This document shows positions 3,279 to 28,587 of a stretch of DNA of 64,000 nt, one piece after another. The stretch spans positions 124,001 through 188,000 of the forward strand of contig MAAO01000004.1 in NCBI GenBank assembly GCA_002163155.1, read 5' to 3'. The notes under the pieces are model-generated. The model had not been told where the DNA came from. It was given only the letters and a program-made list of their open reading frames with translations, and ran no database searches. Each line of letters starts with the position of its first letter. The first letter of the stretch is position 1. The position numbers were made by a program, and so were the translations under genes. The DNA is from Halobacteriovorax marinus. GTDB taxonomy: Bacteria > Bdellovibrionota > Bacteriovoracia > Bacteriovoracales > Bacteriovoracaceae.

Positions 3279-4433
3279 CTACACCTTGTCCAGTAATTCA
3301 CTAGCAGCAACAGCGCAGCTCTTATTCTTAGAAATACCTGCTCTTCCCAAGATCTCAAACCAAGGTGAGTTTAGCTCACATGAGCAATCACTATGTAATC
3401 TTGCTAGATCTCCCATCAATACATTATTGGCAGGAACCGAAGTGATGTAGGGAGAAATAAAATTAAGATAGCCAACTTCTCCCTCTTCTAACACTTGTAA
3501 TGTTTTAACATCCCTAATCAGAACTCTTGACCAAACGGGAACATGGAAATGATGATTCTCACACTCTATATAAGGGATACAGTGTTCTACTGACCCAAAC
3601 CCATCCCTAAGGCGAGCATTGGGAATCCCTAACATCTCTTCACAAAGAGCATAGAATTCAGTTTTAGAAATGGCCTTATTTTGATGACCTTTCCAACCTC
3701 CACCAAGAAAAACAAGAGAATCCTTATTTAACTTGAGAGGCTCAATTCCTAATTCTTTCATTTTCTCTAAAGTGAAATAGAAGAAAGAGGGAAAACCAAA
3801 TATTCTAACGGGTCTGCCTTCTTTTTCAAATTGTTTTAAAGCTTCTATACAACCAAAGACATCAAACTTGTGTCCAAGGTCTTTACCTAAAAACCTAAGT
3901 CCGTACTTCACACTCTTAATGGGAGCATACTTACAGAGGAAGTTATCAGTGTAGGCCGTACCTAACTTACTTCCCTCTTCAGGTTCATATGTAAAGAGTA
4001 AGTAATTTGTCTCTTCCTTACTTACCCATTGATGTTTCTCATAAATCCAATCCACCATTTTTTGAGCGGAGCCAATGGTCCACTCATCAAAGAAGATTTG
4101 AGACTTCTGACCAGTAGTTCCAGAAGAAGTTAAATGAAGAGAAACCTCTTTTTCACTAATTGATTTAACAACATGGTGTTTAAAGAAGTTTGCAATGATG
4201 TATGGAATTTTCTCTAGGTCTTCAATTGTATTTAAAGAGTTTACATCAAAGCCTTCTGACTCAACGAGCTTTTTATAGAAGTCATTATTTGAAGTGTGCC
4301 AAAGAATATTTTGTTTCATGGCCCTTAAGAATAATTCATGACTTTGTTCAAAGTTTGCGTAGGGCGCTTTTATTTCGCACAACTCTTGCACGAAGTTTAA
4401 TTGCTCAGAGTTAGGAACATTTAAATCACTCAT
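3279..4433 (-). CDS. LuxE-family acyl-protein synthetase
   Basis: This 384-residue protein matches the LuxE acyl-protein synthetase/acyl-CoA-reductase-like family in length and layout. The ATP-binding loop LTSSGTTGQK is at residues 101-110, DGFGSVEHC lies in the core, and the C-terminus has an SCAVAASELL stretch where LuxE carries its acyl-accepting cysteine (here about Cys373). In luminous bacteria LuxE activates a fatty acid and passes it to LuxC; the LuxC-type gene is immediately downstream, with no gap. The upstream GNAT gene ends one base before this ATG. By inference it activates the acyl chain that the next protein reduces. The natural substrate is unknown. Confidence 0.85.
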   Translation of the reverse strand: MSDLNVPNSEQLNFVQELCEIKAPYANFEQSHELFLRAMKQNILWHTSNNDFYKKLVESEGFDVNSLNTIEDLEKIPYIIANFFKHHVVKSISEKEVSLHLTSSGTTGQKSQIFFDEWTIGSAQKMVDWIYEKHQWVSKEETNYLLFTYEPEEGSKLGTAYTDNFLCKYAPIKSVKYGLRFLGKDLGHKFDVFGCIEALKQFEKEGRPVRIFGFPSFFYFTLEKMKELGIEPLKLNKDSLVFLGGGWKGHQNKAISKTEFYALCEEMLGIPNARLRDGFGSVEHCIPYIECENHHFHVPVWSRVLIRDVKTLQVLEEGEVGYLNFISPYITSVPANNVLMGDLARLHSDCSCELNSPWFEILGRAGISKNKSCAVAASELLDKV

Positions 4434-17126: not shown

Positions 17127-18170
17127 ATGACAAAAAAACATCTCTTTATCTTTTTAGTATTTGGCCCACTGCTTGGAATCTTAGGCGCTGGTGTTAAGGT
17201 TTATCACTCTATCGCTCTTTGGGAATATGAAGGTGAAGAAAAATCCTTCATTATTAAACCCGGAGAAGGTTTTGGTAAAATTAACTACCGCTTAAAAAAA
17301 CAAGAACTCATAAGCAGTTCAAAGCTTTTTTATCGCTACAATAAAATCAATAACAACATGAGTAAGTTTAAAACTGGGAATTACATCATTAAGCCTGGTA
17401 CGAATATGCTTACGATTATCGATATTCTGACTAAAGGAAAGAGTGTCACTATTAGTGTTACAGTTCCTGAAGGCAAGAACCTGTTTGAAATTGCTAAAAT
17501 TTTAAGCAAGAAGAGCATCACTAATGCAGCTGACTTCATTAAATATGCAAAAGATCCAGACTTTGTCTCAGAGCTTGGAATTCCTGCTTCCAGAATTGAA
17601 GGTTATCTCTACCCTGAGACCTATAAGTTCTCAAAGAATTCTCCGGCGAAACTTGTTATTAGAACAATGGTGCACACTTTTCAAAATAAAACTAAAGACA
17701 TCGACTTCTCTAGCTCTGCTCTTTCAAAGCATTCTATTATTATCTTAGCCTCAGTGGTTGAGAAAGAAACTGGTGCCAGCTTTGAGCGACCTCAAATTGC
17801 GGGAGTCTTTCACAATAGATTAAAGAAACGAATGAGACTTCAATCTGATCCCACAACCATATATGGAATTTGGGAATCTTATAATGGGAATTTAAGAAAG
17901 AGACACTTACTTGAAAAGACTCCTTATAATACTTATAAGATCCCAGCGCTGCCAAAGGGACCTATTTCTAATCCAGGTCTTGAATCAATCAACGCTGTTC
18001 TAAATCCCAATTCTCATAGCTTTCTCTACTTTGTTAGCAAGAATGATGGAACCCATGTCTTCTCTAAGAGTTACCGCGACCACATAAAAGCGGTGAATGA
18101 GTTTCAAAAGAACTCTAAGAATAGAAAAGGTAAATCTTGGCGTGATTTAAAGAAGAAAAAGAAGAACTAA
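17127..18170 (+). CDS. mltG: Endolytic murein transglycosylase MltG
   Basis: 347 residues. MltG cleaves nascent glycan strands at the inner membrane. An N-terminal membrane anchor (about 5-25) is followed by a LysM-like region and the YceG domain, with catalytic Glu in ILASVVEKETG (about residues 208-218) and the SDPTTIYG and family ALPKGPISNPG segments. The C-terminus is Lys-rich. It runs with ruvX, a common pairing, and its stop abuts the stop of the converging gene at 18171 with no spacer. Confidence 0.93.
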   Translation: MTKKHLFIFLVFGPLLGILGAGVKVYHSIALWEYEGEEKSFIIKPGEGFGKINYRLKKQELISSSKLFYRYNKINNNMSKFKTGNYIIKPGTNMLTIIDILTKGKSVTISVTVPEGKNLFEIAKILSKKSITNAADFIKYAKDPDFVSELGIPASRIEGYLYPETYKFSKNSPAKLVIRTMVHTFQNKTKDIDFSSSALSKHSIIILASVVEKETGASFERPQIAGVFHNRLKKRMRLQSDPTTIYGIWESYNGNLRKRHLLEKTPYNTYKIPALPKGPISNPGLESINAVLNPNSHSFLYFVSKNDGTHVFSKSYRDHIKAVNEFQKNSKNRKGKSWRDLKKKKKN

Positions 18171-20602: not shown

Positions 20603-21241
20603 ATGAATAGAACTAACGTAAGCGGATATTCCCAGAAAGAAGAATTTATAAATTTCCTTACTCACGGAATTGGTGCAGTTCTCTCAGTTATTGGAGTGAT
20701 CTTTCTACTGATCAATGCTTTCAGCGCAAATAATCCTCTAATGATTGTTAGCTACCTGATTTACGGACTCTCGCTAATCTCATTGTATTCAGCTTCATCT
20801 TTCTATCACCTCGCAAAAGATGAATCCCAGAAACTAAAATTCAAGAAGCTAGATCATATTTGTATCTACTATCTCATCGCAGGAACCTACACTCCACTCA
20901 TGCTAAATAATCTTGGTGGACAAGTAGGAATTGGAACAACAATTGGGGTTTGGGTTATTGCTCTTTTTGGAACTATTTATAAATTGAAATCTAAGAAACA
21001 AAATAAATTCATCTCAACTGGTGCTTACCTTCTCATGGGTTGGGTAGTTCTTTTCATCTGGCCACAATTAAAAGCTGGTCTCAATGAAGCCGTTCTCGAA
21101 TGGCTTATTATCGGTGGACTCTTCTACAGTGTAGGAGTCATCTTCTACGTCATGAAGAAAGTCCCCTACACTCACGCTATCTGGCATCTCTTTGTCCTAG
21201 CGGGAAGCATCTCCCACTTCATCTCAATCACCCTCGCCTAA
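20603..21241 (+). CDS. Hemolysin III / PAQR-family seven-helix membrane protein
   Basis: 212 residues with about seven hydrophobic helices. Diagnostic pieces are SSFYHLAKDES at about 65-75, LDHICIYYLIAGTYTP at about 83-98 and HAIWHLFVLAGSISH near 191-205; the Ser, Asp and His residues in these form the metal site in this superfamily. Bacterial members (YqfA/hemolysin III) sit in the inner membrane and their biochemical role is not settled. The ATG starts a single-gene unit. The stop lies seven bases before the inverted repeat that opens the 21248-21634 element. Confidence 0.9.
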   Translation: MNRTNVSGYSQKEEFINFLTHGIGAVLSVIGVIFLLINAFSANNPLMIVSYLIYGLSLISLYSASSFYHLAKDESQKLKFKKLDHICIYYLIAGTYTPLMLNNLGGQVGIGTTIGVWVIALFGTIYKLKSKKQNKFISTGAYLLMGWVVLFIWPQLKAGLNEAVLEWLIIGGLFYSVGVIFYVMKKVPYTHAIWHLFVLAGSISHFISITLA

Positions 21242-21365
21242 TCCTTTTAGGTACGCGGTTACTTTTCTAAAAATTAGCTAGTTAGTTTTAGAACTTTCAA
21301 AAATGAAATACTTCAAATCAGTATTCAAGAATCTATTTATCTAAATGAATTTTTAGAGTAGATAA

Positions 21366-21439
21366 ATGAAGTCCTCGGTTATCTCTAAACCCTCAATGAT
21401 GAGGGCCTTAATCTAAGGAGAGGTCATGGAGGACTTCAT
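21366..21439 (+). promoter_or_regulatory. Inverted-repeat leader that can hide the peptide's ribosome binding site
   Basis: ATGAAGTCCTC (21366-21376) and GAGGACTTCAT (21429-21439) pair perfectly over 11 bases. Between them are a CCCTC / GAGGG hairpin (21390-21394 with 21401-21405) and the Shine-Dalgarno AAGGAGAGG (21415-21423). The start ATG (21426) sits at the foot of the stem. In the folded mRNA the start region would be largely closed, a design known for type I toxin mRNAs. The folding is read by eye. Confidence 0.6.
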
Positions 21440-21506
21440 AAGGGTGATTACCATAATCATTCTTTGTTTGCAGTTGGTAACTGCGATCATTGAATTTTTA
21501 AAGTAA
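21426..21506 (+). CDS. 26-residue hydrophobic peptide, type I toxin-like
   Basis: ATG at 21426 with AGGAG five bases upstream opens a 26-codon frame ending TAA at 21504-21506. The peptide has a short polar start (MEDF), one hydrophobic helix (residues about 7-23: VITIIILCLQLVTAIIE) and a Lys end, the plan of Fst/Ldr/TisB-type membrane toxins; I see no sequence match to any one of them. An in-frame TAA four codons upstream fixes the start. The leader folds over the start and a GC-rich hairpin follows the stop. The antisense RNA expected for type I systems is not proven. It could instead be a small membrane regulator. Confidence 0.55.
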   Translation: MEDFIRVITIIILCLQLVTAIIEFLK

Positions 21507-21512
21507 TCTTTA

Positions 21513-21539
21513 GGGGTAAGTGTACCAAGCACTTGCCCC
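21513..21539 (+). terminator. Stem-loop after the hydrophobic-peptide gene
   Basis: GGGGTAAGTGT (21513-21523) pairs with GCACTTGCCCC (21529-21539) over 11 positions with two G-U type pairs and a 5-base loop. There is no T-run, so it is either a weak terminator or a 3' stabilising structure; a second ATGAATT / AATTCAT hairpin lies just beyond. Confidence 0.5.
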
Positions 21540-21644
21540 ACCTTATGAATTTTATCATGAAATAATTCATGAAATCAAATCAAGAAAAGTGAATTGGTAA
21601 GTTGTTAGAACTACGAAAAGTAACCGCGTACCTATTTGGCGTAC

Positions 21645-22451
21645 CTATTTGCAGGCGAGAGGTTTAAATGCAAAACCGTGTTTTTGAATGATCTCTTTCA
21701 ATTTTCCGCTCTTACATAGTTTATTGTAGGCAGCTGAGTATCTCTTCATAATTTCTTTCTTATGAGGATTCGTTTTTAAAATAGCTGGTGAAGACAGCTC
21801 TTTTCTAAGCAGTGGTTCTAGTTGAATGATATTACTCTTTCGTTCTTCACTAAAAGTTTTTAGAATAACTTCTACTCTTTGCGGTTCAGAAATAAATAGG
21901 TCAATTCTCTTAGCGAGTAACATATTTATTTTTTGTCTATCGTTACGAACAAAGACCATGTCCACAGATTTATTCTTTAAAATAGATTCATCATAACCAC
22001 CGTGGATATGAGCACCGAGAGACACCTTTCCCATTTTCTTAATATCTGAAGTTTTTATTTTTGAACTTTTTAATGTAAAAAGCGCGACACTTTCATTATT
22101 AGTCGCCTCTAGAAAATCAAAGTCTCTGACATGTTGATCAACATTATTCCACATGGCAAAGAGCATATCGTATTGCTTCTTTCTCACACCTTCCCTACAC
22201 CTTGACCAAGGAATGAAGAGAATCTTAGCAGTAAAGCCTGCCTCTAACATGACAGTTCTTACGAACTCCGCCACTAGGCCACCATTTTCAAGACTTGCAC
22301 TGGCATAAGGTAGGCCCTCATGCCAACACATGGAAATTTTCTTGGGAACTTCTTTACTTGACCAGGTCTTGGAAACAAAACCATCGTCTTGAGCTTTAAT
22401 GGTAAAGCTCACGCAAGTGAGAAGAATGAGTGACAGAAATATTTTCTTCAT
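21645..22451 (-). CDS. Periplasmic solute-binding protein, family 3-like
   Basis: 268 residues with a signal peptide (residues 1-20, LILLTCVSFTIKAQ). The body resembles family 3 extracellular solute-binding proteins: GLPYASASLENGGLVAEFVR near 46-65, WSRCREGVRKKQYDMLF near 82-98 and FISEPQRVEVIL later. Members bind amino acids or similar small molecules in the periplasm. No permease or ATPase gene is nearby, so it may be an orphan binding protein or a sensor. The stop codon lies inside the second copy of the 13-base repeat next to the TIR element. No Shine-Dalgarno stands out. Confidence 0.75.
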   Translation of the reverse strand: MKKIFLSLILLTCVSFTIKAQDDGFVSKTWSSKEVPKKISMCWHEGLPYASASLENGGLVAEFVRTVMLEAGFTAKILFIPWSRCREGVRKKQYDMLFAMWNNVDQHVRDFDFLEATNNESVALFTLKSSKIKTSDIKKMGKVSLGAHIHGGYDESILKNKSVDMVFVRNDRQKINMLLAKRIDLFISEPQRVEVILKTFSEERKSNIIQLEPLLRKELSSPAILKTNPHKKEIMKRYSAAYNKLCKSGKLKEIIQKHGFAFKPLACK

Positions 22452-28357: not shown

Positions 28358-28587
28358 ATTTCTAGGTACGCCGGTACCTATCGTGATTACCAATAATTAC
28401 AAACTACTTTTATTAAATTTATAGAGTGAATCAGCTTCAAAAGCTGAAAGATTGCGCACTCACGCTAGGAATGAATACTTTTCATTCAGAAATTCTTAAT
28501 AACTAGTGACTGAAGGGTGAAGTCGAGAGAAAGAAATCTTTAACTAATTGTTATCACCATAGGTACCCCCGTACCGCAGAGATTTCT
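28356..28587. mobile_element. MITE-like element with 8 bp target duplication
   Basis: AGATTTCT occurs at 28356-28363 and again at 28580-28587, flanking a 216 bp insert (28364-28579). The insert ends in imperfect inverted repeats of about 28 bases: GGTACG, two mismatches, GGTACCTAT, one mismatch, GTGAT, one mismatch, AC, matched on the opposite strand at the right end. Removing the insert and one repeat would leave a short spacer between the stops of two converging genes. It encodes nothing; hairpins CAGCTT/AAGCTG and GAATGAA/TTCATTC lie inside. The 5' TAGGTACGC also opens the element at 21248. Confidence 0.7.

Follow-up and report, generated by a model that had tools for sequence, protein, structure and literature searches.

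A candidate type I toxin-antitoxin-like family associated with RAYT-type elements in Halobacteriovorax marinus and its relatives

Here, we describe a short element of Halobacteriovorax marinus which is probably a non-autonomous mobile element of the RAYT/terminal inverted repeat (TIR) type with a type I toxin-antitoxin (TA)-like locus as cargo. It lies at positions 21248-21634 of the analysed window, a stretch of 64,000 nt from this genome (handle G000; MAAO01000004.1, positions 124,001-188,000). The cargo is a highly structured RNA with a reading frame for a small hydrophobic peptide. A preliminary description of this DNA had proposed a toxin-like function, and covariation in the RNA, an antisense promoter motif, purifying selection on the peptide and a sub-threshold similarity to TisB all lend strength to this predicted role. 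By sequence, the ends of the element are of the RAYT type, i.e. of a Y1/HuH transposase. Our verdict is that the locus represents a new type I TA-like family which appears to ride on RAYT/TIR elements.

Structure of the element and of its RNA

The element is delimited by an exact inverted repeat of 20 bp (TAGGTACGCGGTTACTTTTC; arms 21248-21267 and 21615-21634). These ends had been described before and are indeed present; they form the only exact 20-bp inverted repeat with a spacing below 1.5 kb in the window. The spacer between the arms measures 347 bp and holds the toxin-like locus, with the 26-codon frame at 21426-21506 as the sole gene inside the element. The inverted repeat on the 5′ side of the frame, the hairpin on its 3′ side and the lack of a second gene were likewise confirmed, and the RNA at 21358-21556 has a folding energy of -80.6 kcal/mol (z -8.5) that was equalled by no shuffled sequence. 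The features are as follows, from left to right.

21248-21267, minus strand: left terminal inverted repeat, RAYT-type end with a 19-mer core; the 19-mer also flanks the RAYT unit at G000:C13:501234-502359
21366-21386, plus strand: 5′ arm, with 21419-21439 as its partner, of the stem in which the start codon is buried
21369-21550, plus strand: conserved structured RNA, the toxin-like mRNA; scores of 200 and 161 bits with the covariance models R1 and R2
21406-21418, plus strand: hairpin CCTTA...TAAGG over the first bases of the Shine-Dalgarno sequence AAGGAG (21415-21420)
21426-21506, plus strand: 26-codon frame MEDFIRVITIIILCLQLVTAIIEFLK, toxin-like membrane peptide
21436-21443, plus strand: coding-start arm of the long-range helix (helix 4, covarying); pairs with 21541-21548, the 3′ end folding onto codons 4-6
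21513-21539, plus strand: mRNA hairpin on the 3′ side, whose complement the predicted antisense RNA would carry as its 5′ hairpin
21541-21548, plus strand: 3′ arm of the long-range helix, CCTTATGA segment
21549-21557, minus strand: antisense extended -10 motif, TGATAAAAT
21573-21578, minus strand: antisense -35 motif, TTGATT, 18 bp from the -10 motif
21615-21634, plus strand: right terminal inverted repeat; this end recurs 3′ of six of the eight toxin copies in the H. marinus genome
21626-21651, plus strand: right end duplicated in tandem over 13 bp (GCGTACCTATTTG twice), extending past the exact TIR

All eight copies of the locus in the H. marinus genome fold individually into one common architecture. 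Its 5′ part consists of a stem between leader and AUG, which encloses a hairpin with an AATGA loop and a CCTTT/AAAGG hairpin on the Shine-Dalgarno sequence, and its 3′ part of a helix that joins the 3′ end to codons 4-6 and encloses the coding region and the 3′ hairpin. Covarying stems surround both the Shine-Dalgarno sequence and the AUG, so that the start is hidden by the structure of the mRNA, a trait that is common but not universal in type I TA systems. In an alignment of 68 sequences, which was fitted to the model and is therefore biased towards structure, 87.0% of the cells are paired (70.9 when shuffled, 44-50 when slid) and 693 cells show two-sided changes versus 203 in the shuffled control. 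An unfitted alignment of eight sequences gave the same sign, with 92.9% versus 84.0% paired and 39 versus 12.8 two-sided changes. An upstream ATG in the 5′ arm, considered as a mok-like leader, is not conserved beyond the H. marinus genome.

The frame is open across 22 codons in 65 of 70 copies, compared to 1 and 23 for the other two frames. For pairs with at least 85% identity the pN/pS ratio is 0.24, an estimate that is conservative because the fold also constrains synonymous sites; it increases to 0.5 in the most distant pairs. The 55 distinct peptides are small (22-31 aa) and hydrophobic, with a mean hydropathy of 2.62 over their best 16 residues, and in this and in the purifying selection on them they resemble the peptides of type I TA systems. 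Their majority sequence types are MEEMIRVLTLFILLLQLAVILRMN and MEDFIRVLTLIxLILQLIVAVLELxK. No family of Pfam or NCBIfam was matched above its cut-off, the phage and plasmid collections contained no match to the peptide, and there was none in PDB. Below threshold, three of 22 peptides hit Pfam TisB_toxin (PF13939) at E-values below 1 (best E 0.0063) and three of 22 hit NCBIfam TisB (TIGR04459; best E 0.017); 20 shuffled peptides gave no TisB match, and the alignment, which spans residues 10-25, points to a shared design at most.

Copies in H. marinus and distribution of the family

A search at the DNA level detected eight related loci in the H. marinus genome, 200-390 bp in length and 69-100% identical, with differing or unrelated flanks, and none in four congeners. 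The homology among these copies reaches the right end motif and then ceases; the motif is degenerate at the copy C13:2288 and absent at C15:363659. Two copies are decayed, by a frameshift (C13:219888) or by a deletion within the frame (C1:365224).

The covariance model R1, built from eight sequences, was run against 129 genomes of the taxonomic family and gave about 100 matches, spread over 35 genomes from 11 genera. A second model, R2, was built from 68 sequences and searched in 369 genomes of the phylum; its matches, in 35 genomes of 12 genera, were confined to this taxonomic family, with nothing in the others. Best E-values beyond the genus of H. marinus range from 1e-25 to 1e-31. The search for further copies suggested in the preliminary description was thus productive, with eight copies in the H. 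marinus genome and about 90 across the 35 genomes of the taxonomic family. In Rfam, nothing reached the gathering score and only chance matches were seen below it.

Tandem arrays of toxin loci exist in G030, G128 and G094. In one array of G030 (L131), a genome in which no RAYT was detected, toxin-like loci with identical peptides are located at 3973, 4334 and 4695, at a spacing of 361 bp. Matches to the whole element in G006 and G017 were discarded as short pieces within other sequence; G019, initially a match of the same kind, later showed weak matches to the covariance model.

A conserved antisense promoter motif

On the minus strand just beyond the 3′ end of the RNA, TTGATT-18-TAAAAT is found in seven of the eight H. 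marinus copies with diverged spacers, the frameshifted copy having TTGAAT. The copies of G018 carry TTGATT-18-TATAAT, with TTGCAT in one of them. Throughout the family, an extended -10 motif (TGnTAnnWT) is present in a 37-nt interval at the 3′ end of the RNA in 37 of 70 copies, versus 0-5 in non-overlapping intervals and 2 on the sense strand, and TAnnAT occurs in the same antisense interval in 57 of 70. A palindrome TTTCAn3-7(T/A)GAA was observed 45-90 bp before the RNA in 19 of 71 copies (0-2 in other intervals), for example at 21286-21305 of the window. It may be an operator or promoter of the toxin mRNA.

Linkage to RAYT genes and dispersed end motifs

The H. marinus genome contains three Y1_Tnp (RAYT) genes. 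One of these (C13:501553-501807), in which the HYH and Y motifs can be recognised by eye, has two tandem inverted end motifs (501234-501284) on one side and, on the other, a toxin copy ending in the right end motif (502340-502358); ends, RAYT and toxin are thereby combined within 1.1 kb (G000:C13:501234-502359). The RAYT gene at G000:C9:54288 is flanked by GTACCCCCGTACC ends, unlike those of the C13 unit. Both loci have the anatomy of RAYT/TIRYT systems, a Y1_Tnp gene with inverted cognate repeats, and passed the Pfam cut-off; the cut-off of NCBIfam NF047646 was missed (60.9 versus 80). The window copy itself is without a RAYT gene. A toxin-like cargo in an element lacking a transposase had been considered unusual, a concern that is answered by the related unit at C13.

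The same association was found in other genera. In G094, about 40 bp separate a RAYT frame of 165 aa from the toxin locus downstream of it, where an end (AAAAAGGTTCCTGGACACCTT) is also present. Genus g24 and one genome of g4 harbor 2-12 copies per genome of the repeat AAAAGGTGCCAGGT, above a low control. This repeat is located immediately upstream of RAYT genes in G136, G113 and G122, and, among the 36 toxin loci of 12 genomes, it follows 20 at a distance of at most 150 bp, where 0.012 would be expected. One copy in G018 (L086) possesses both inverted ends, with a different end sequence (GAAAAGGAAGCG(C/T)GTACC).

The 9-mer TAGGTACGC occurs four times in the window versus 0.03 times expected from shuffles. 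As a genome-wide tag it was rejected because it is not enriched in the genome (10 sites versus 15 for the reversed control), and it is therefore not the signature of the ends. The longer end CGAAAAGTAACCGCGTACC has 11 exact occurrences in the H. marinus genome and 18 with at most three mismatches, compared to 1 for the control. This end motif recurs with and without cargo; several solo ends are intergenic and some are in tandem. An exact 19-mer search among genome contigs (257 Gb) yielded one Ferruginibacter record, about two chance matches being expected. On inspection no consistent GTAG tag was seen at the ends, and most ends of the window type fold weakly as DNA, in which they do not conform to GTAG REP sequences with their GTAG or GTGG tetranucleotide beside a stable hairpin.

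A second inverted-repeat element of the window (28363-28577; GGTACGCCGGTACCTATCGTGAT ... GTTATCACCATAGGTACCCCCGTACC) is REPIN-like and free of the toxin RNA; it fits a REPIN by anatomy only. It had been placed at 28364 and credited with the same end as the first element. In fact it starts at 28363, and its ends are of the GTACCCCCGTACC type and match the RAYT at C9, so that the shared 9-mer is a common core and not the mark of a common family.

Several further observations concern the ends. Solo end motifs lie near base 1000 of L017, L019, L020, L018 and L023, some of them between convergent genes and few bases from the stops, and TTTTAG often follows; this placement may reflect a target preference. 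At the edges of elements the end motif is duplicated in tandem, over 13 bp in the window and 30 bp at L011:835-884, possibly as a result of repeated end cleavage or of slippage. In G136, three tandem units of approximately 295 bp, each with AAAAGGTGCCAGGT, directly precede a RAYT gene (L175, 779-1381). Every RAYT of G015 has its own end sequence, and this genome also contains REPIN-like inverted pairs of approximately 200 bp with non-coding spacers (L078, 744-945; L079, 744-944; L080, 701-911), the motifs being about 170-190 bp apart. Integron attC and tRNA-like readings of the element were rejected, as no such motif was visible by eye and no tRNA was found.

Genomic context

The element is flanked by a gene of the hemolysin III/TrhA family (20603-21241) and by a gene at 21645-22451 that is weakly substrate-binding-protein-like. 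The latter has several weak paralogues in the H. marinus genome, and its stop codon lies inside the duplicated end repeat. The surroundings of the hemolysin III gene have the same gene order in the congeners G001, G003 and G004 (proteins at 17127, 20096 and 23141 are 81-86% identical), and there the stop of this gene almost directly abuts the counterpart of the window sequence beyond approximately 22500. The excess of the window over these three genomes amounts to approximately 1.3 kb and corresponds to the element plus the gene 21645-22451. What the comparison shows, for this block as a whole and not for the element alone, is that the window lineage gained it or the others lost it. For the composite unit at C13, the search for an empty site found only paralogues.

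Proposed mode of action and alternative explanations

We propose that the full-length mRNA would be silent, like full-length hok or aapA mRNA: its fold would hide the ribosome site and the AUG in a branched stem, and its 3′ end would close onto the coding start. The promoter just past the 3′ end of the mRNA would drive an antisense RNA that would run back through the 3′ hairpin into the coding frame and act as the antitoxin. Processing of the mRNA, or its escape from the antisense RNA, would free the start; the released hydrophobic peptide of 26 aa would then insert into the inner membrane and, like TisB, depolarise this membrane, an action that the antisense RNA would prevent. A Y1/HuH RAYT recognising the ends would mobilise the element in trans, or would have done so in the past, by moving single-stranded copies among intergenic sites.

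Several results weigh against this proposal. In most toxin copies an end can be recognised only 3′ of the locus, so that the earlier label "TIR-bounded" applies to the window copy, the one G018 copy and the RAYT composite. RAYT was not detected in 12 of the 35 toxin-carrying genomes, some of which are incomplete. The antisense promoter, recognised as a motif only, is indistinct in four copies of G128 and one of G030, and a search for a sense promoter of the toxin mRNA found none. The best TisB match remains well below the family cut-off (17.3 versus 25 bits). The search for empty sites, also suggested in the preliminary description, did reveal three congeners without the insert; the gap takes in the neighbouring gene as well, so that it is no clean empty site of the element by itself.

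Four alternatives were considered. The first, which we regard as unlikely but serious, is that the peptide is a benign small membrane protein, a regulator or a defence effector under type I-like control, as a toxin and a benign small membrane protein are inseparable by sequence alone. However, the combination of a start buried in a covarying fold and a conserved antisense promoter motif corresponds to the layout of type I toxins (PMC8309996, PMC3919570), and multiple copies, among them the decayed ones at C13:219888 and C1:365224, fit a selfish or addictive locus. It is likewise rather improbable that we are dealing with a chromosomal type I TA-like family spread by duplication and recombination, in which the RAYT ends are mere intergenic neighbours and the toxin loci no cargo. 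Tandem arrays without clear ends in G030 and G128, the toxin genomes in which no RAYT was detected and the many copies marked on one side speak for it; the halt of homology at the 3′ end motif in the H. marinus copies, the linkage of toxin loci and repeat (20 of 36 versus 0.012 expected), the occurrence of RAYT and toxin in a single unit in two genera and the G018 copy with both ends speak against it. That the RNA itself is the functional product, for instance a transposition-related or regulatory RNA with an incidental frame, is very unlikely: the fold is very strongly conserved, coding region included, but the low pN/pS, the open frame with its conserved residues and the lack of an Rfam match speak against it. 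Finally, the 20-bp ends are able to pair, but the notion that they are just the stem of one RNA without any other copy, put forward earlier as grounds for refuting the element, is contradicted by the solo copies and can practically be dismissed with the end motif at 18 places, many of them toxin-free, and also flanking a RAYT gene.

Relation to known systems and significance

Genes for Y1 HuH transposases with inverted repeats or REPs on their flanks are known as TIRtrons (TIRYT) and REPtrons (RAYT) (PMC3733652, PMC6006769, PMC2817692). The system described here resembles these in having a Y1_Tnp gene above the Pfam cut-off between inverted cognate short repeats, solo repeats and inverted pairs dispersed intergenically, and more than one RAYT in a genome, with a separate end type for each. 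It differs from RAYT/REP systems in the lack of a consistent GTAG tag, in ends that by themselves mostly form weak hairpins and in the low copy number. Inverted doublets of a RAYT-associated repeat, such as the window element 28363-28577 and the pairs of G015, correspond to REPINs (PMC3116915); the spacer of REPINs is non-coding, whereas the 347-bp spacer of the element at 21248-21634 is coding, which sets it apart from this class. More generally, and in contrast to REPINs and TIRs as presented in PMC3733652, PMC6006769 and PMC3116915, some units and many repeat-bordered loci carry coding cargo here.

With type I TA systems such as TisB/IstR-1, hok/Sok, aapA/isoA and ldr/Rdl, the family shares a hydrophobic peptide of 20-30 aa, a sequestered translation start, an antisense promoter (here a motif) overlapping the mRNA, tandem and dispersed paralogues and a profile match to TisB below the threshold. 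It is distinguished from them by the position of the antisense promoter at the 3′ end of the mRNA, by the linkage to RAYT ends and by the lack of a match above cut-off in Pfam, NCBIfam and Rfam. A TA locus within a transposon is also known from the Tn3 family (PMC7157771); there it is a TA gene pair in a large transposon, whereas the present case would be an RNA-controlled peptide in a HuH-type element of 0.4-1.1 kb. In a keyword survey of the literature on RAYT or REPIN together with toxin or antitoxin, including PMC6006769, PMC3733652, PMC3116915, PMC7157771 and PMC12548467, no such cargo came to light; this coverage is light on subscription journals and leaves the absence unproven.

Type I toxins are hard to find because their genes are tiny, and covariation here yields an unusually clear family of approximately 90 members without an entry above cut-off in Pfam, NCBIfam or Rfam. 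In the H. marinus genome, the complete unit occurs together with copies that consist of cargo only, with solo ends and with decayed copies. Tentatively, and with less confidence than we place in the element itself, we suggest that the RAYT/TIR elements of this bacterial family may use the type I TA locus as an addiction module, so that loss of the element would be punished by the longer-lived toxin mRNA. Such a module would constitute the first toxin cargo under RNA control in a HuH single-strand element, with a shared end system moving a type I TA locus between sites. To the question why RAYT repeats persist, a TA cargo offers a directly testable answer: addiction, if true, would help to explain how such small RAYT-repeat elements persist.
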